DNA from: Evansella clarkii
Lineage (GTDB): Bacteria > Bacillota > Bacilli > Bacillales > Salisediminibacteriaceae
Direction of reading: 5' to 3'
Length of the DNA stretch: 64,000 nt
NCBI RefSeq assembly: GCF_002019695.1
Contig: NZ_KV917376.1
Coordinates: 1,753,047-1,817,046 of the forward strand
Part shown: positions 4,101-30,219 of the stretch, piece after piece
Layout of the letters: each line of letters starts with the position of its first letter
How positions within the stretch are numbered: position 1 is the stretch's first letter
Translations under genes and position numbers: made by a program
Notes under the pieces: model-generated
Told to the model about the DNA's origin: nothing
The model's database searches: none
The model's input: the letters and a program-made list of their open reading frames with translations, nothing else

Positions 4101-5051
4101 CTATACTCCTGCCCCAGTGTTTTCAAACATCTTAAGAAAATACTTTGCTCCTTTAGATAAGTATCGATCCTTGAGCCAGATGACAGCAGACTTCGAAACG
4201 ACATCAGAATCAGTTATTACCTTGTATCTGAGATTTTCTGACGGGAAAAAATTAAGCGTTGATTTCGGAAGAACAGCAGCGCCTGCTTTTGCCGAAACGA
4301 GGGAAAGGATCATCGCTGCATCCGGGCATTCGCAGATTATATTCGGTTCAAAACCGTGTTTCCTGCACTCGTTGACAATCAGCTCAAACTGCCCGACACC
4401 ATTAACCCGGCGAAGCAGCAGAAGCGGCACACTCTCCAGGTCTTTCATCCGGATTGTTTCCTCTGAGGAAGAAGATGTGAACGGCAATGAAGGGCTTTCA
4501 ACAGTCGCAGCTGAATCTTCTGTTTGTGTAAAAAATTCATTTGAGTATACGAACACATAAGGTTCATCGGGCAGCGGCATGACAATGAAATCTTCTGAGG
4601 AATCAAGTGGGAGTCTCACAAGCCCAAGCTCGACTTCCCTTGTTCTGACAAGTTCGCTGATATGGAAAGTATCGCCCTCCCGAAGCTGGAAAGTTACTTC
4701 AGGGAAGTCATCACGAAAGGAGCGTATTCTTTCAGGCAGGAAGGAAAAGCAGGTTTTTACGGAACCTATAGAAATGATACCGCGGATTCCCTCACTAACT
4801 TCCTTTACTTCGCAGGCGGTGTCTTCCACGAGCTGAAGAATCTTTTCAGCTTTCAAAAAGAGTACTTTACCTGCTTCGGTAAGTTCCATTCTTTTTCCGT
4901 ACCGCTCAAGAAGAGGGGTGCCCAGTTCCTGTTCCAGAAGCTTAAGCTGCTGGCTTAAAGGAGGCTGGGCCATATGCAGCCTCTTTGCTGCACGGGTAAT
5001 CTGACCTTCCTGAGCAATAGTATAAAAGTACTTCAGCTGTTTAATGTCCAA
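4101..5051 (-). CDS. LysR-family transcriptional regulator
   Basis: 316 residues. The N-terminus MDIKQLKYFYTIAQEGQITR with AKRLHMAQPPLSQQLKLLEQ is a classical LysR winged helix (residues 1-60). A linker helix and a two-lobed effector domain from about residue 90 follow. It is transcribed divergently from the dapA-like/hpaE/hpaB/hpaD genes across a 159-bp intergenic region, the usual LysR activator geometry, so it probably controls the rightward hpa operon. The effector is unknown. A second regulator of another family (GntR) lies next to it. Confidence 0.9.
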   Translation of the reverse strand: MDIKQLKYFYTIAQEGQITRAAKRLHMAQPPLSQQLKLLEQELGTPLLERYGKRMELTEAGKVLFLKAEKILQLVEDTACEVKEVSEGIRGIISIGSVKTCFSFLPERIRSFRDDFPEVTFQLREGDTFHISELVRTREVELGLVRLPLDSSEDFIVMPLPDEPYVFVYSNEFFTQTEDSAATVESPSLPFTSSSSEETIRMKDLESVPLLLLRRVNGVGQFELIVNECRKHGFEPNIICECPDAAMILSLVSAKAGAAVLPKSTLNFFPSENLRYKVITDSDVVSKSAVIWLKDRYLSKGAKYFLKMFENTGAGV

Positions 5052-24499: not shown

Positions 24500-27400
24500 G
24501 TGAGAAAGAACTGGTTAAAAGCGTGTAGTAAAAACAGATGCATGGGATATCTTCGTTATCTGCTTATTATTTTCATTGTGGTTCCCGGCATGCTCATACT
24601 CTCTCCCGGGGAAAATGCCAAGGCGGATTCTTCAGAACAGCACTTATTTCTGACAAATGAAGGGAAGAAGGTGGAACTTAATTCATATATTCAAATATTT
24701 GAAGATGAAGAAGGTTCATGGACAATTAACGGCATTCATGAAGAGCTTTCTGCTAAAGAATTTCATCCTGTGGAAAAGTGGACGCCAAGCCTGGGATATA
24801 CGAATTCGGTGTACTGGATAAAGCTTCAGATAACGAATACATCTTCAAAAGAAAGATGGCTCCTGGAACTTGATAATCCAACCATGGACTACGTGACCTT
24901 ATATTATCCCGACCCTCCAGGCGACCAGACAGCTTTGGATGAAGAAGACATGGGGTTCGCTGACGGCAATTACTCCGAGTCATCTGGTTTACAGTCAGAC
25001 TTATTTGTTTCAGCAGATGGTTTCCAGGCATTCCAATCTGGTGATCTTTATCCTTTTCAGCAGAGAGATTTAAATCATCGTAATTTCGTTTTCACCCTTT
25101 CTCTTCCGGTGAATGAAACAGTACCCGTGTACCTCCGATTTGAGACAGAAGGTGCTATGCAGATGCCCCTCACTCTCTGGCGGGATGGGGCGTTTATAGA
25201 AAAAGCACAAAAAGAATACACCTTCCTGGGCCTGTTTTTCGGACTTGCTTTAATTATGAGCGTGTATAATTTGTTCTTATTCTTTGCTCTCAAACACAAG
25301 AGCTATCTGCATTATGTAATTTTTATTTTATTAAATATTATGACCCATCTAACTTTTACTGGAATAGGTTTTCAATATTTCTGGCCGGAAGCAGTATGGT
25401 GGAATAACAGAGCAATCGTATTTTTCATGTGCCTTTCAAATATCTGGGCATTTGTATTTGTTAAAAATTTTCTCGACACAAGGTCACGCCAGCCTGTGTT
25501 TGACCGAATTTTTACAGGGCTGATCGCTTTTAATTCCATTATTCTGGGCTTATTGCTTTTTTCCTACCCGGCGGCGCTGAGGTTAATTATGTTCAGTCTT
25601 GTGCTGACCATTTTGTTTATCCTCGCTGCTGCAGTAATGAGCCTGAGATCTGGTTACAGGCCGGCGAGATTTTTTCTGCTGGGATGGTGTTTTTTCCTGA
25701 CAGGTGTCCTCATATCCAGCCTTGCTGATATAGGGCTCATCCCTTTAACCACGGTGACCAAATACGCCTGGCAGGGCTTTTTATCACTGGAGGTCATCTT
25801 ATTTTCTTTTGCTCTCGCAGATAAAATAAACATCATGCGGTCAGAAAAGGAAAAAGCAGAAAAAGAAGCTGTAAAAAGCCAGCAGCTTGCCTTACAGAGC
25901 CTGAAAAAGGCCGATAAACTAAAAGACGAATTTCTCGCTGTGACTTCTCACGAATTGAGAACCCCGTTAAATGGGATTATCGGGCTGACAGAAGCCACTC
26001 TTGAAGAGCGTGGTGAAAAGCTGCCTGAGAAAGCAGCGGAAAACCTTGAAATGATCAAGGTGAGCGGAAAAAGACTGGCACAATTAATTGATGATATACT
26101 GGATTATTCAAAGCTCAGCTATAATGCGTTAGATCTGGACAGGAAAGAAGTGTATTTAAAAGAATTAACCGATGTAGTAATGACAATCTGCCGCAGCCTT
26201 GTCGGAAACAAGGATGTAAAACTTATTAATAAAATTCCTCCATTAATCCCACCTGTATATGCAGACGAAAACCGATTGCAGCAAATTCTTTATAATCTTA
26301 TAGGCAACGCAGTTAAATACACAAATGCCGGTGAAATTACCGTAAGTGCGCTACAGATTGAGGATTATATTGAAATGAAAATAAGTGATACGGGAACAGG
26401 CATACCAGCCCATAAATTAAACACAGTGTTCTTACCGTTCAGCCGGGCGGAGGATACTTCAGCAGCCGGCTCTGGAAAAAATACAGAAGGCTCCGGTATC
26501 GGGCTGGATGTGACAAAAAGGCTTGTGGAACTTCATGAAGGTGAAATTAAAGCAGAATCAACCCAGGGAACAGGCACCGTTTTTAGCTTTACGCTTCCAA
26601 TTTTTAAAGTGAGCACATCAGAACAAGTGATACAGGAAACAGCAGCTGCTGCTATGCCAAAGTCTCCCATGCCTTCCCAGCCTCAGGAAAGGGTAATAAC
26701 AACAGCAGAGCAGGGGCAAATAAGAGTATTAATCGCTGATGACGAACCGGTTAACCGGCACTTGTTAAAGAGCCAGCTCTCAGCGAAAGGCTTTTTGATA
26801 ACGGAAGCAGCTAATGGGGCAGAAGCCCTTGAAAAATTAAGGAATGAGCCGCCCTTTGATTTGTTAATTGCGGATATAATGATGCCTAAATTATCAGGGT
26901 ATGAACTATGCCGGGAAATCCGGAATTTATATTCTCTTACAGAGCTCCCTGTACTAATGCTTACGGCGAAAAATCAAATTGAGGACCGGATCGCAGCTTT
27001 TGAAATGGGGGCAAACGATTATCTTGTGAAACCATGCAACAAACAGGAACTGCTGGCGAGAGTGAACACGCTTATCGAGTTAAAACGGTCAGCGACATCA
27101 GTCAGAAACTATGTATCCAGGCTGGACATGGCAAATAAAAAACTTGAAAAGCTCAATAATCAGCTTGAGGAAAAAGTCCGTGAGCGGACAATGGAACTCA
27201 CAAATTCTAACAAAAAACTGGAAAAAGTAAACGTCGAACTAAGGAAGCTGGAAGAATCGAAACGCCTGCTGCTGTCCAGCATCTCCCATGAACTGGGCAC
27301 CCCGATGACATTTATTCAGGGATACATTCAATCTCTTCAGGAAGGTGTTATTGCATTAGACGACAGGAGATATAATGAACTTGTGCAAAACAGACTTAAT

Positions 27401-27979
27401 ATGCTCGAGAGGCTGATTCAGGATATCTTTGAGCTTTCCAGATTTGAAACAGGGAAGATGACGCTGAATATTGAGGAAGTTATTCTGCCGGACTGGCTTG
27501 ATGACCTTTTTGAAAAATACAGCTTAATGGCTGAGGAGAAAGGAATCGTCTTCACGTACCCGGAGATTAACAGCCTTCCTGTAAAAGAAAAGGTTCTTGT
27601 ATATATTGATAGGGGAAGAATGGATCAGGTTTTTTCTAATTTAATCGGAAACGCTCTGAAACATACGGAACCGGGAGGGATAATTGAACTGCATATAACT
27701 GTGTGCCAGGGCAGTAACCATGCAGATAATGGGGCCGATTTTGATGGCAAGGTTGTGATGGAACTAAGGGATAATGGACAGGGCATCAGGGAAGAAGACC
27801 AGCCTCATATTTTTGAAAGATTTTATAAAGGAACTGCAGGTAGGGAAATAAAAGGAACAGGCCTTGGGCTTGCTATAACAAAGGAAATTATCGAGTACCA
27901 TAAAGGGAAAATCGCCGTGGAAAGTAAATGGGGGGAAGGAAGCAAATTCATCATAATGCTCCCCATAGTTCTGGAATGA
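24500..27979 (+). CDS. hybrid sensor histidine kinase with 7TMR-DISM sensor and two kinase cores
   Basis: 1159 residues from a GTG with ribosome binding site GGGGGAG. Layout: N-terminal hydrophobic segment (about 20-36); extracellular DISMED2-like beta domain (about 45-215); seven-helix 7TMR-DISM block (about 240-445); coiled coil; HisKA with His484 (TSHELRTPLNG); first HATPase domain (about 590-705, DTGTGIPAHKL); receiver domain (about 742-865) with phospho-acceptor Asp792 (IADIMMPKLSG); long coiled coil; a second HisKA with His930 (SSISHELGTPMTF); and a second HATPase domain (DNGQGIREEDQPHIFERFY). Two complete kinase cores flanking a receiver in one chain imply an internal phosphorelay. The cognate regulator follows 30 bp downstream. 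DISMED2 domains are thought to sense carbohydrate-like ligands. Confidence 0.9.
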   Translation: MRKNWLKACSKNRCMGYLRYLLIIFIVVPGMLILSPGENAKADSSEQHLFLTNEGKKVELNSYIQIFEDEEGSWTINGIHEELSAKEFHPVEKWTPSLGYTNSVYWIKLQITNTSSKERWLLELDNPTMDYVTLYYPDPPGDQTALDEEDMGFADGNYSESSGLQSDLFVSADGFQAFQSGDLYPFQQRDLNHRNFVFTLSLPVNETVPVYLRFETEGAMQMPLTLWRDGAFIEKAQKEYTFLGLFFGLALIMSVYNLFLFFALKHKSYLHYVIFILLNIMTHLTFTGIGFQYFWPEAVWWNNRAIVFFMCLSNIWAFVFVKNFLDTRSRQPVFDRIFTGLIAFNSIILGLLLFSYPAALRLIMFSLVLTILFILAAAVMSLRSGYRPARFFLLGWCFFLTGVLISSLADIGLIPLTTVTKYAWQGFLSLEVILFSFALADKINIMRSEKEKAEKEAVKSQQLALQSLKKADKLKDEFLAVTSHELRTPLNGIIGLTEATLEERGEKLPEKAAENLEMIKVSGKRLAQLIDDILDYSKLSYNALDLDRKEVYLKELTDVVMTICRSLVGNKDVKLINKIPPLIPPVYADENRLQQILYNLIGNAVKYTNAGEITVSALQIEDYIEMKISDTGTGIPAHKLNTVFLPFSRAEDTSAAGSGKNTEGSGIGLDVTKRLVELHEGEIKAESTQGTGTVFSFTLPIFKVSTSEQVIQETAAAAMPKSPMPSQPQERVITTAEQGQIRVLIADDEPVNRHLLKSQLSAKGFLITEAANGAEALEKLRNEPPFDLLIADIMMPKLSGYELCREIRNLYSLTELPVLMLTAKNQIEDRIAAFEMGANDYLVKPCNKQELLARVNTLIELKRSATSVRNYVSRLDMANKKLEKLNNQLEEKVRERTMELTNSNKKLEKVNVELRKLEESKRLLLSSISHELGTPMTFIQGYIQSLQEGVIALDDRRYNELVQNRLNMLERLIQDIFELSRFETGKMTLNIEEVILPDWLDDLFEKYSLMAEEKGIVFTYPEINSLPVKEKVLVYIDRGRMDQVFSNLIGNALKHTEPGGIIELHITVCQGSNHADNGADFDGKVVMELRDNGQGIREEDQPHIFERFYKGTAGREIKGTGLGLAITKEIIEYHKGKIAVESKWGEGSKFIIMLPIVLE

Positions 27980-28009
27980 AGAATAAACACATGGAAAGGA
28001 GATGTCGCT

Positions 28010-28729
28010 GTGTCCGGGGTAAAAATTATTCTTGCGGAAGATGACAGGGGCATAAGGGATTTGACGACTCTGTATCTTACGCAAAAAGGCTATGATGTTT
28101 TTAGCGCGGAAGATGGAAGGAAAGCAATTAAACTAATTGAAGAAATCCGTCCTGACTTAATGCTGCTTGATATTATGCTTCCTGGTATGAACGGCTATGA
28201 AATATGTGAGAAGGTAAGAGAGATAACAGATGCCCCGGTTATATTTCTCAGTGCAAAAAGGCATTCCGCTGATAAAGTGAAGGGTTTCGAGAGCGGTGGT
28301 GATGATTATATGACGAAGCCGTATAACATGGCGGAGCTGGAGGCAAGAATAAAAGCCCATTTACGAAGAAACACCAGAGTGGCGGAAAGAAAAATTAAAA
28401 GCTCTGTGCTGAAGTATGGGGAACTCTCGGTTGACACCAGCAGTTGTGAAGTATACATATCGGGTGAGAAACTCATTCTTTATGCAAAAGAGCTCCAGCT
28501 TCTTCTGCTGTTAATTAATCATCCTAACCAGGTATTCAGCGCCGAACAGATTTACGATCAAATTTGGGGATCAGATAAATTTGGCGACCTGAAAACAGTC
28601 ATGGTTCATATAAGTATGCTTCGAAAAAAGATAGAAAAGGACCCTTCACGGCCGGAATTTATTAAAACGGTGCGGGGGTTTGGTTATAAATTTAATGCCC
28701 CGTCAGAAACGATTGTCCAAAAAATTTAA
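28010..28729 (+). CDS. OmpR-family response regulator
   Basis: 239 residues from a GTG preceded by AAAGGAGATG. The receiver domain (about 5-120) has the acidic pair AEDD at residues 9-12, phospho-acceptor Asp54 (LLDIMLPGMNG), a Thr/Ser switch in IFLSAK and TKPY. The C-terminal winged helix (about 135-232) includes LYAKELQLLLLLINHPNQVFSAEQIYDQIWG-type elements and ends TVRGFGYKF. It is cotranscribed with the hybrid kinase. Targets are not known; the next gene is a riboswitch-controlled sinI-like gene, but its own promoter and leader lie between. Confidence 0.93.
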   Translation: MSGVKIILAEDDRGIRDLTTLYLTQKGYDVFSAEDGRKAIKLIEEIRPDLMLLDIMLPGMNGYEICEKVREITDAPVIFLSAKRHSADKVKGFESGGDDYMTKPYNMAELEARIKAHLRRNTRVAERKIKSSVLKYGELSVDTSSCEVYISGEKLILYAKELQLLLLLINHPNQVFSAEQIYDQIWGSDKFGDLKTVMVHISMLRKKIEKDPSRPEFIKTVRGFGYKFNAPSETIVQKI

Positions 28730-28792
28730 AATATTTTACCTATTTTTAACCTTGGTTCATTATAGTGAATTTAATGAAGACTATGGTGCTTC

Positions 28793-28912
28793 TCCTCCTG
28801 ATAAGGGCAAACCTGCTGAAAGGCAGGGACGCAAAGCTTCGGGTCTAAAGGGCTGCTTTCCTTAATATGGATAAGAGCCATATGACAGCCGGGCCGCCTG
28901 GTTGGCGAATGC
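28793..28912 (+). ncRNA. cyclic-di-GMP-I (GEMM-I) riboswitch
   Basis: The conserved GEMM-I pieces occur in order: GGGCAAACC (28805-28813), a TGCT-GAAA-GGCA tetraloop hairpin (28814-28825), GGGACGCAAAGC (28825-28836), GGTCTAA (28842-28848), a P3 stem GGCTG...CAGCC (28851-28855 and 28886-28890), then GGGCCGCC. The GAAA loop and ACGCAAAG segment are the tetraloop and receptor of the class. The aptamer lies 20-130 nt upstream of a sinI-like gene with no other gene between. TCCTCCT (28793-28799) is exactly complementary to AGGAGGA (28916-28922) in the ribosome binding site, suggesting translational control. Ligand and sign of control are inferred. Confidence 0.88.
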
Positions 28913-28930
28913 GGAAGGAGGAAAGGGTGA

Positions 28931-29062
28931 ATGCAAAAGGTAATCGAAACTGCTACTGAGAAAGAATGGGAGGAACTTTTACTCGAAGCAAAGAAAATTG
29001 GCCTGACACCAGCTGAAATCCGCAACTTTTTTCAAGGGCAAAAAGAACTGAACAGGGCATAA
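28931..29062 (+). CDS. sinI: SinI-like antirepressor (43 residues)
   Basis: 43-residue protein; a ribosome binding site GGAAGGAGG lies 9 bp upstream. KEWEELLLEAKKIGLTPAEI followed by RNFF aligns with B. subtilis SinI (EWVELMVEAKEANISPEEI then RKYL), the two-helix hook that binds the matching domain of SinR and relieves repression of biofilm matrix genes. It lacks the extra C-terminal tail of B. subtilis SinI. No sinR neighbour is in the window, so its partner is encoded elsewhere. Monocistronic: own leader with a c-di-GMP riboswitch and own terminator. Such control would tie antirepression directly to c-di-GMP level. Confidence 0.9.
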   Translation: MQKVIETATEKEWEELLLEAKKIGLTPAEIRNFFQGQKELNRA

Positions 29063-29080
29063 TCATTTTGCAGCTCATAT

Positions 29081-29122
29081 TGCATGGCAGCCAGTGAATG
29101 AAAAGGCGCATGCAGTTTTTTT
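29081..29122 (+). terminator. terminator after sinI
   Basis: TGCATG (29081-29086) pairs with CATGCA (29109-29114), with an inner GCC/GGC; then GTTTTTTTG. Confidence 0.7.
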
Positions 29123-29272
29123 GTTTTTATAATGTCGAAAATTGTTATGGTATAAATTTCCTGTACGAATAACTAAATGCATTGAAGGGAACAGAAGAAT
29201 AATAAGCTTGATGCAGCCAGCAAGATATGATGAAGGCAGGAATATTCGGATCAACTTAGGGAGGTTTTTAGT

Positions 29273-29914
29273 ATGTCTGAAGATAACAGAAATGCACTTG
29301 AAACAGCAACGTTTGGAATGGGCTGATTCTGGGGCCCTGATGCCCGGTTCGGTCATCTCAGAGGAGTTGTTAGTACACGAGTCGGTTACGCTGGAGACAC
29401 AACGGAGCAACCGACTTACAGAAAAATGGGAGACCATTCGGAAACACTGCAAATTGATTTTGATCCGAATGTGATTGATTATAATGAGATCCTTGAACAT
29501 TTCTGGTATAACCATAACCCTCGGCGACACGGCTACGGTGGACGCCAGTACATGTCTATTTTGCTGTATTCTTCCGAGGAACAAAAAGAACAGGCTCTCA
29601 GGAAAAAAGAAGCATTTGAAAAATCAGAAGGGATGCTTATTGAAACAGAAATATCCCCTTTGAGAGAGTTCTGGCTGGCGGAGGATTACCATCAAAAATA
29701 TTATTTAAAACGGTGGGCGTCTGCAACTGAGGCGGTGATGAGCCTGTATGAGGAACATGATGACTTTGTGAACGCCACACTTGCCGCACGGCTGAACGGA
29801 TTCATCAAAGGATTCGGGTCAATAGCGGCAATCAAGGAGGAGGTTCAGGAATGGGAGCTGCCTGAAGAAGAAAAAGCGAGATTAACAAACACTATTCGGT
29901 CAATTAAATGGTAA
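29273..29914 (+). CDS. msrA: peptide-methionine (S)-S-oxide reductase with in-frame TGA at the catalytic position (candidate selenoprotein MsrA)
   Basis: Reading from the ATG at 29273 (ribosome binding site AGGGAGG) gives MSEDNRNALETATFGMG, then TGA at codon 18 (29324-29326), then FWGPDARFGHLRGVV in the same frame to a stop at 29914; 213 residues in all. MsrA proteins have the nucleophile Cys in GCFW exactly where the TGA stands. The downstream sequence is a complete MsrA with QIDFDP and the H-N-P...RQYMSILLYSSEEQ region, without any frameshift or second stop. No other Cys is present, so there is no resolving Cys. A hairpin with a G-starting loop follows the TGA at a distance suited to a bacterial SECIS. 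The alternative is a point-mutated pseudogene or a sequencing error. Confidence 0.8.
29324..29363 (+). promoter_or_regulatory. candidate bacterial SECIS element downstream of the msrA TGA
   Basis: After TGA (29324-29326), CCG (29344-29346) pairs with CGG (29350-29352) around loop GTT. GATG (29339-29342) pairs with CAUC (29354-29357), and outer UC/GA-type pairs follow across a small bulge. The first loop base is G and 20 nt lie between the TGA and the loop, both as generally described for bacterial SECIS. Drawn by eye, not folded. Confidence 0.5.
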
Positions 29915-29972: not shown

Positions 29973-30219
29973 CCCCCCCCCCCCCGGGTCTAGTTGCGAA
30001 AATGGAGGTTCTAGGTGCGAACTGCGCCCTTCTATTTGCGAAACGAGCCCCTTGTCGCCACACCCCCAGGTCTAGTTGCGAAAATGGAGGTTCTAGTTGC
30101 GAAATGCGCCCTTCTATTCGCGAAACGAACCCCTTGTTGCGAAAATCCCAGGTCTAGTTGCGAAAATGGAGGTTCTAGTTGCGAAATGCGCCCTTCTATT
30201 CGCGAAACGAACCCCTTGA
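29973..30219 (+). repeat. poly-C tract and 82-bp tandem repeats built from 21-bp TGCGAA units (C2)
   Basis: A run of 13 C (29973-29985) is followed by an 82-bp unit starting at 29987, 30069 and 30151 (last copy partial). TGCGAA or CGCGAA cores fall at 29995, 30016, 30037, 30077, 30098, 30119, 30138, 30159, 30180 and 30201. Each 82-bp unit is three 21-bp steps and one 19-bp step. Units 2 and 3 are almost identical, implying recent duplication. It lies between msrA and the ABC-importer operon. Confidence 0.9.

Follow-up and report, generated by a model that had tools for sequence, protein, structure and literature searches.

The window, a stretch of 64,000 nucleotides corresponding to C1:1753047-1817046 of the Evansella clarkii genome, contains a c-di-GMP-I (GEMM-I) riboswitch aptamer, a short sinI-like gene and a weak terminator-like structure, arranged in this order on the same strand:

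28797-28902, + strand: c-di-GMP-I (GEMM-I) aptamer (RF03167, 64.5 bits; RF01051, 70.1 bits)
28931-29062, + strand: sinI-like gene, 43 aa, starting with ATG (PF08671, E = 5.6e-11)
29079-29124, + strand: terminator-like hairpin and T run after sinI, weak (-12.0 kcal/mol, simple script)

The sinI-like ORF starts after a gap of 28 nt from the end of the aptamer. Residues 11-35 of its product match PF08671 (Pfam SinI) with 42.5 bits (cut-off 31.4, E = 5.6e-11), and Pfam revealed no other family and no HTH domain in the 43-aa protein. A profile of 50 such SinI proteins (alignment A2, containing 50 of the 51 family proteins, with L076 omitted) matched B. subtilis SinI (1b0n_B) with E = 7.9e-12. The window protein scored 26.9 bits against the cut-off of 80 bits for the NF046031 SinI equivalog. 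Judged by these scores, it is a member of the SinI family, and not assuredly the equivalog of Bacillus SinI.

A preliminary description of this DNA had placed a 43-codon SinI-like gene just 3' of the aptamer, as found here, and its coordinates and parts were correct apart from the weak terminator and the extent of the transcript. It had credited the gene with a terminator of its own and with being alone on its unit. 3' of sinI, a simple script did detect a hairpin (about 29079-29116, -12.0 kcal/mol) with a T run behind it, but a strict terminator scan of 28600-29400 found none, and the fold of 29063-29135 was no better than its shuffles (z 0.77). Upstream, on the + strand at window positions 24500-28729, are genes for a hybrid histidine kinase of the 7TMR-DISM type and for a response regulator carrying a Trans_reg_C domain. 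The latter gene stops at 28729, 67 bp short of the aptamer, and a search of 28600-29400 for sigma-70-like promoters was negative, so that the sinI unit might be transcribed by read-through from the kinase and response-regulator genes.

The next gene after sinI is msrA (29273-29914, + strand), with an in-frame TGA at the position of the expected catalytic Cys (FGMG-TGA-FWGPDARFG). Its product matches Pfam PMSR, with a 'selenoprotein MsrA helical' domain below the cut-off, and the genome contains one tRNA-Sec match over the cut-off (62.2 bits). The in-frame TGA, the Pfam names and the tRNA-Sec suggest that the msrA product is probably a selenoprotein. An 82-base repeat, present in about 2.9 copies (29981-30218, TRF score 406) and built from shorter 'TAGTTGCGAAA' units, lies between msrA and a periplasmic-binding-protein gene.

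A cmscan search of the whole window assigned 28797-28902 (+ strand) to RF03167 (c-di-GMP-I-GGC) with 64.5 bits, compared with a gathering score of 59 (E = 5.9e-13). This was the sole Rfam match over gathering in the window, a lower-ranked overlapping match of the same clan having been dropped by the program. The preliminary description had named a GEMM-I aptamer here and proposed an Infernal check with RF01051; this check gave 70.1 bits against a gathering score of 35, and the aptamer is above threshold with both models. R1, a model built from 51 sinI-linked aptamers including the window copy, gave 82.5 bits at 28796-28901. Across these 51 aptamers, 94.2% of the cells in the class I structure were paired, and two-sided changes were present in 16 of the 22 pairs. 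Either figure was matched by 0 of 500 shuffles; kinship among the sequences can by itself beat shuffles, but slid controls of the 51 aptamers were only 27-44% paired. A chance covariance match was rejected on the basis of the over-threshold scores and of structure figures beyond those of the 500 shuffles.

Three positions of the window aptamer were placed on Vc2 through the consensus structure, with the following probable counterparts:

28806, + strand: G28806, counterpart of Vc2 G20, a c-di-GMP contact (A1 column 11, G in 50 of 51)
28833, + strand: A28833, counterpart of Vc2 A47 (A1 column 38, A in 51 of 51; A4, 60 of 60)
28897, + strand: C28897, counterpart of Vc2 C92 (A1 column 107, C in 49 of 51)

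In the wider set (A4, n = 60), the G20 position is G in 59 sequences and the C92 position is C in 57. Two aptamers, L096 and L174, carry an A at the G20 position, a change familiar from cGAMP-sensing relatives. According to the available text of PMC4744006, residues G20, A47 and C92 of Vc2 contact c-di-GMP. From its sequence, the window element appears to be a c-di-GMP-I aptamer in which the c-di-GMP contact residues are present, and c-di-GMP is its predicted ligand.

To our count, PF08671 matches occur in 29 of 35 genomes of the host family (115 matches) and RF01051 matches in all 35. Among the 150 aptamers listed, at least 51 form aptamer-sinI pairs, with the SinI domain 53-81 nt 3' of the aptamer. 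Short sinI genes were defined as open frames of at most 89 aa, and the 35 other PF08671 rows (frame of at least 109 aa) were taken as SinR-type and kept outside the aptamer counts. Searching the 29 unpaired short sinI loci revealed nine more aptamers above 50 bits, with two weak matches (19.6 and 19.3 bits) and one partial match (12.4) left out, and an aptamer is present at 60 of the 80 short sinI genes of the family. At least one aptamer-sinI pair, and up to four, occurred in each of the 29 SinI-bearing genomes among the 35 searched.

SinR loci in named genomes were found by a genome scan with a SinR alignment, and the best 80 of 188 loci, a sample biased to close relatives, were examined. 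An aptamer was found at 60 of these 80, and at 59 of the 60 it lies 5' of a same-strand SinI ORF ending within 330 nt downstream; a short sinI is near SinR at 71 of the 80. The aptamer-sinI unit has the orientation of sinR in 44 of the 59 cases, and in 42 of these 44 the sinI stop codon lies 52-240 bp before the sinR start (position 5001). In the other 15 of the 59, the aptamer is opposite to the sinR strand, yet 5' of a short sinI on its own strand. The genera involved include Evansella, Salipaludibacillus, Alteribacter, Sutcliffiella, Fictibacillus, Lederbergia, Cytobacillus, Peribacillus, Neobacillus and Salibacterium. The family of the 80 named loci was judged from the record name, with one Paenibacillus, one MAG and one uncultured Bacillaceae among them. 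L180, with a weak partial aptamer match (42.5 bits), was excluded from the pair count; its record is named B. subtilis, its SinI closely resembles that of Lederbergia L174, and the name may be wrong.

No RF01051 match was found in 14 control genomes, including B. subtilis, and a search for plasmid copies of the aptamer-sinI unit gave just one 60-base match, in an Aeromonas record. The idea of an isolated curiosity was rejected, because the arrangement recurs at 60 of 80 family loci and at 59 of the best 80 of 188 SinR loci. The observation that the aptamer lies directly before sinI, recurrently across the family and in other named genera, is confirmed.

The E. clarkii genome contains seven c-di-GMP-I aptamers and four PF08671 matches, one of which is the C-terminal part of SinR. 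A second aptamer (C1:4750450-4750537, - strand) lies directly 5' of a second sinI, which converges with the genes for a 112-aa SinR and a 92-aa SinR-like HTH protein. No aptamer was found at a third sinI-like gene (C1:3350097, L202). The 112-aa SinR matches B. subtilis SinR (1b0n_A) with E = 2.3e-40, and the SinR that the preliminary description had called for is encoded at full length. The likeness to the B. subtilis sinI-sinR system (PDB 1b0n) consists of the SinI domain and a full-length SinR; B. subtilis, unlike E. clarkii, has no RF01051 match. In B. subtilis, sinI is under the control of Spo0A.

The window sinI, one of three genes for short SinI proteins in this genome, is distant from sinR, and a further HTH protein of the genome resembles SinR. 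It is conceivable that the aptamer is real and that the small protein targets a SinR-like paralogue instead of SinR, with an output that differs from the SinR regulon. The PF08671 match, present in the genome's SinR, is absent from the 92-aa SinR-like protein, which argues against this reading, and we consider it unlikely. Binding of SinR by the window SinI is the interaction we would predict. A search of the genome for PF12389 (TasA-type) proteins found none, and the SinR operator pattern GTTCTYT-N0-8-ARAGAAC occurred at one palindromic site, versus two for the reversed control.

The genes 3' of the other five aptamers encode GGDEF, GGDEF-EAL, MotA, LuxR-type and DUF192 proteins. With a simple script, a terminator-like hairpin (-7.7 kcal/mol or better) was found after four of these five, and the best hairpin within 130 nt of the fifth (L021) was -1.4 kcal/mol. 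The aptamers 5' of the GGDEF and GGDEF-EAL genes (L020:3114-4871, - strand; L023:1549-4134, - strand) suggest feedback onto c-di-GMP, the signal itself. A c-di-GMP-I aptamer and a terminator-like hairpin also lie before motA (L022:8425-9539, + strand), and motility may be under the same c-di-GMP signal through this aptamer. In total, 12 GGDEF matches are present in the genome.

The region joining the window aptamer to sinI contains complementary tracts that could form an expression platform:

28793-28798, + strand: candidate anti-Shine-Dalgarno (SD) tract UCCUCC, with six standard pairs to 28917-28922
28797-28800, + strand: 5' strand of the closing helix P1, sharing C28797 and C28798 with the candidate anti-SD tract
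28895-28898, + strand: CGCC arm of an alternative hairpin, including the counterpart of C92 and base 1 of the 3' P1 strand
28904-28907, + strand: GGCG, the other arm of this hairpin, pairing with 28895-28898
28917-28922, + strand: SD sequence GGAGGA; the SD scan chose GAAGGAGG, 9 nt before the ATG

No terminator was found between the aptamer and sinI by a simple script (28891-29020), and in the 51 family leaders the start codon follows the aptamer end by 19-44 nt, suggesting that translation is the likely step of control. We assign a probability of roughly 0.7 to the reading that a class I c-di-GMP riboswitch here governs how a SinI-type antirepressor is translated, with the ligand acting as an ON signal that lifts SinR repression and a turn towards biofilm as the predicted outcome. 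In the absence of ligand, a tract touching or within P1 would pair with the SD; in many copies, a small hairpin would also sequester the 3' P1 strand, and sinI would be silent. Upon binding of c-di-GMP, P1 would close and the SD would be released, and the SinI produced would bind SinR and lift its repression. Support comes from the aptamer and its contact residues, the SinI domain, the SinR encoded in the genome, the recurrence of the aptamer-sinI pair and the GGDEF, GGDEF-EAL and MotA genes behind other aptamers of the genome. The wiring from c-di-GMP through SinI to SinR proposed in the preliminary description is supported as far as sequence goes, given the contacts, the SinR, the 12 GGDEF matches and the recurrence.

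Since the SD is predicted to be masked by one P1 strand or by a tract touching it, the ligand should switch sinI translation ON, a direction predicted from folding with mixed controls. In the 51 family leaders, comparison of free and aptamer-closed ensembles showed that closing of the aptamer opens the SD in 46. SD opening rose by 0.200 on average, whereas 15 shuffled versions of the upstream tract gave 0.055-0.153 (baseline gain about 0.10), and in 38 of the 51 leaders the gain exceeded the locus's own shuffle mean. Pairing of the SD to the upstream region was 0.385 in the family, compared with 0.150-0.268 in shuffles.

A second set, without L163 (which has no upstream sequence), gave a positive gain in 50 of 58 leaders, with a mean of 0.267 versus 0.136-0.202 when shuffled (baseline about 0.16). 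For the 49 leaders outside the first family, a figure that drops nine loci of presumed first-family genera, the gain was 0.275 versus 0.143-0.215. In the free state of the second set, SD opening was unremarkable (0.331, versus 0.326-0.379 shuffled), and the SD-upstream pairing of 0.227 had 2 of 15 shuffles as high. The closed state stands out (SD opening of 0.599 versus 0.490-0.560), so the gain in this set derives from the closed state.

The strand masking the SD (SD base paired at 0.5 or more) was the 3' P1 region in 32 of the 49 outside leaders and the 5' side in 11, with 6 showing neither; the corresponding numbers for the 51 family leaders were 15, 26 and 10. The closed-state gain in the second set fits a different masking layout there, and two masking layouts with the same logic support an ON switch. 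Two further controls were negative. When upstream anti-SD tracts were exchanged between loci, their pairing with the SD was not significantly weaker (-9.04, against -9.24 for a locus's own tract; 5251 of 20000 permutations did equally well), and the SD-masking 3' hairpin showed no two-sided changes in 22 distinct leaders of other genera, a set picked by folding. In four leaders (L058, L094, L092 and L103), the SD was mostly masked despite a closed aptamer.

For the window itself, the possible P1 pairs are G28800-C28898, C28798-G28900 and C28797-G28901, and P1 is absent from the free fold. In transcripts ending at 28922-28960, the UCCUCC:GGAGGA helix formed at 0.79-0.96 in the free fold with the SD 0.02-0.07 unpaired, and the pairing of CGCC (28895-28898) with GGCG (28904-28907) was 0.46-0.50. 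With the whole ORF folded in, UCCUCC:GGAGGA dropped to 0.02 and the SD was 0.40 unpaired. The window SD was 0.28 unpaired in the free ensemble versus 0.50 with the aptamer closed, and the free ensemble lay 14 kcal/mol below the aptamer-closed state. By our own arithmetic, nanomolar binding pays about 12-13 kcal/mol at equilibrium. This is less than the gap, and the ON model therefore needs co-transcriptional folding, or tertiary or Mg2+ terms absent from the calculation.

The same riboswitch could in principle work with the reverse sign, with the ligand closing P1, an SD:anti-SD helix stacking on it, and sinI turned OFF. The geometry of the window would allow this, as P1 has the anti-SD tract immediately on its 5' side and the SD on its 3' side, and the helices could stack; L071 and L058 also keep the SD largely masked when the aptamer is closed (0.35 and 0.11 unpaired, respectively). 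However, closing lowered SD opening by more than 0.2 in 0 of 51 family leaders and in 1 of 58 second-set leaders, and in 32 of the 49 outside leaders the SD pairs with the region of the 3' strand of P1, which is incompatible with simultaneous closure of P1. In B. thuringiensis, sinI is up at high c-di-GMP according to the available text of PMC7793685, by a route that is not known to be an aptamer. On this evidence, we regard the OFF direction as quite improbable.

Highly improbable, in our estimation, is that the window aptamer is a c-di-GMP-I-GGC variant that responds to a different ligand: RF03167 won the clan competition in the window and was above its gathering score at five of the seven aptamers of the genome, but RF01051 gave more bits than RF03167 at all seven and was the best rank of the other six, and the A47 position is A, not the G of RF03167, in the window copy and in all relatives compared (51 of 51; 60 of 60). 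We read 'GGC' as referring to G at the A47 position from the printed RF03167 consensus, and with A28833 at this position the GGC label is unsupported for the window copy. A GGC variant with another ligand was rejected on the retained A47, the higher RF01051 score and the RF01051 ranking of the other genome aptamers.

The preferred reading, a c-di-GMP-I riboswitch that would turn on sinI translation, has partial precedents. Vc1 and Vc2 of Vibrio cholerae and Bc1 of B. thuringiensis share with the window the aptamer class and the G20, A47 and C92 contacts, and Vc1-dependent expression drops when c-di-GMP is lowered, according to the available text of PMC4744006 and PMC11218506. As described there, two terminators form part of a long platform in Bc1, and Vc1 has no apparent terminator or anti-SD; the window, in contrast, has a platform of 28 nt with a candidate anti-SD touching P1.

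A precedent on sinI itself comes from Bacillus methanolicus MGA3, where the sinI 5'-UTR was listed, as (c-di-GMP)-sinI, with a putative riboswitch for c-di-GMP, one of 41 putative riboswitches derived from RNA-seq and comparison with Rfam (PMC4342826). In the available text, that report covers one species in a table row and a sentence, with no mechanism or test, whereas here the arrangement occurs in two copies in the E. clarkii genome, in 29 of 29 SinI-bearing family genomes and at 59 of the best 80 of 188 SinR loci. The preliminary description knew of no aptamer on B. subtilis sinI, and RF01051 found none there; the putative one in B. methanolicus (PMC4342826) was the only c-di-GMP riboswitch on sinI seen in our literature search, which extended to the text of few papers and in which no report on the breadth or mechanism of a sinI riboswitch was seen. 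The link between a c-di-GMP riboswitch and sinI is not wholly new, and its kind is known; the interest lies in the target, the breadth and the short translational platform.

In Paenibacillus sp. FSL P4, a c-di-GMP-I element is described as 'antisense' to a SinR-like gene in the available text of PMC9943018, and resembles the present case in that a GEMM-I aptamer adjoins a SinR-type regulator. The interpretation given there is that the regulator is controlled in antisense, whereas in 15 of the 59 pairs here the aptamer is opposite to sinR and before a sinI on its own strand. The Paenibacillus element might alternatively belong to a short sinI that went unannotated on the strand of the riboswitch.

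A broader proposal, for which we see about even odds, is that direct control of SinI translation by c-di-GMP represents the standard Sin wiring in Bacillaceae, with at least two masking modes and up to four sinI copies per genome, that it sets the SinI:SinR ratio in aptamer-sinI-sinR pairs, and that the aptamer-less B. subtilis lost it. In textbooks, SinI/SinR is the switch for biofilm formation in Bacillus, and c-di-GMP generally signals a sessile way of life; to our knowledge, the two are not known to meet in B. subtilis. If the reading proposed here is true, a single RNA, with no protein receptor, would join c-di-GMP to SinI/SinR in many Bacillaceae, and the B. subtilis model of sinI control should be transferred with caution to aptamer-bearing Bacillaceae. 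The route from c-di-GMP to the biofilm genes in Bacillaceae would then become testable by one reporter fusion.
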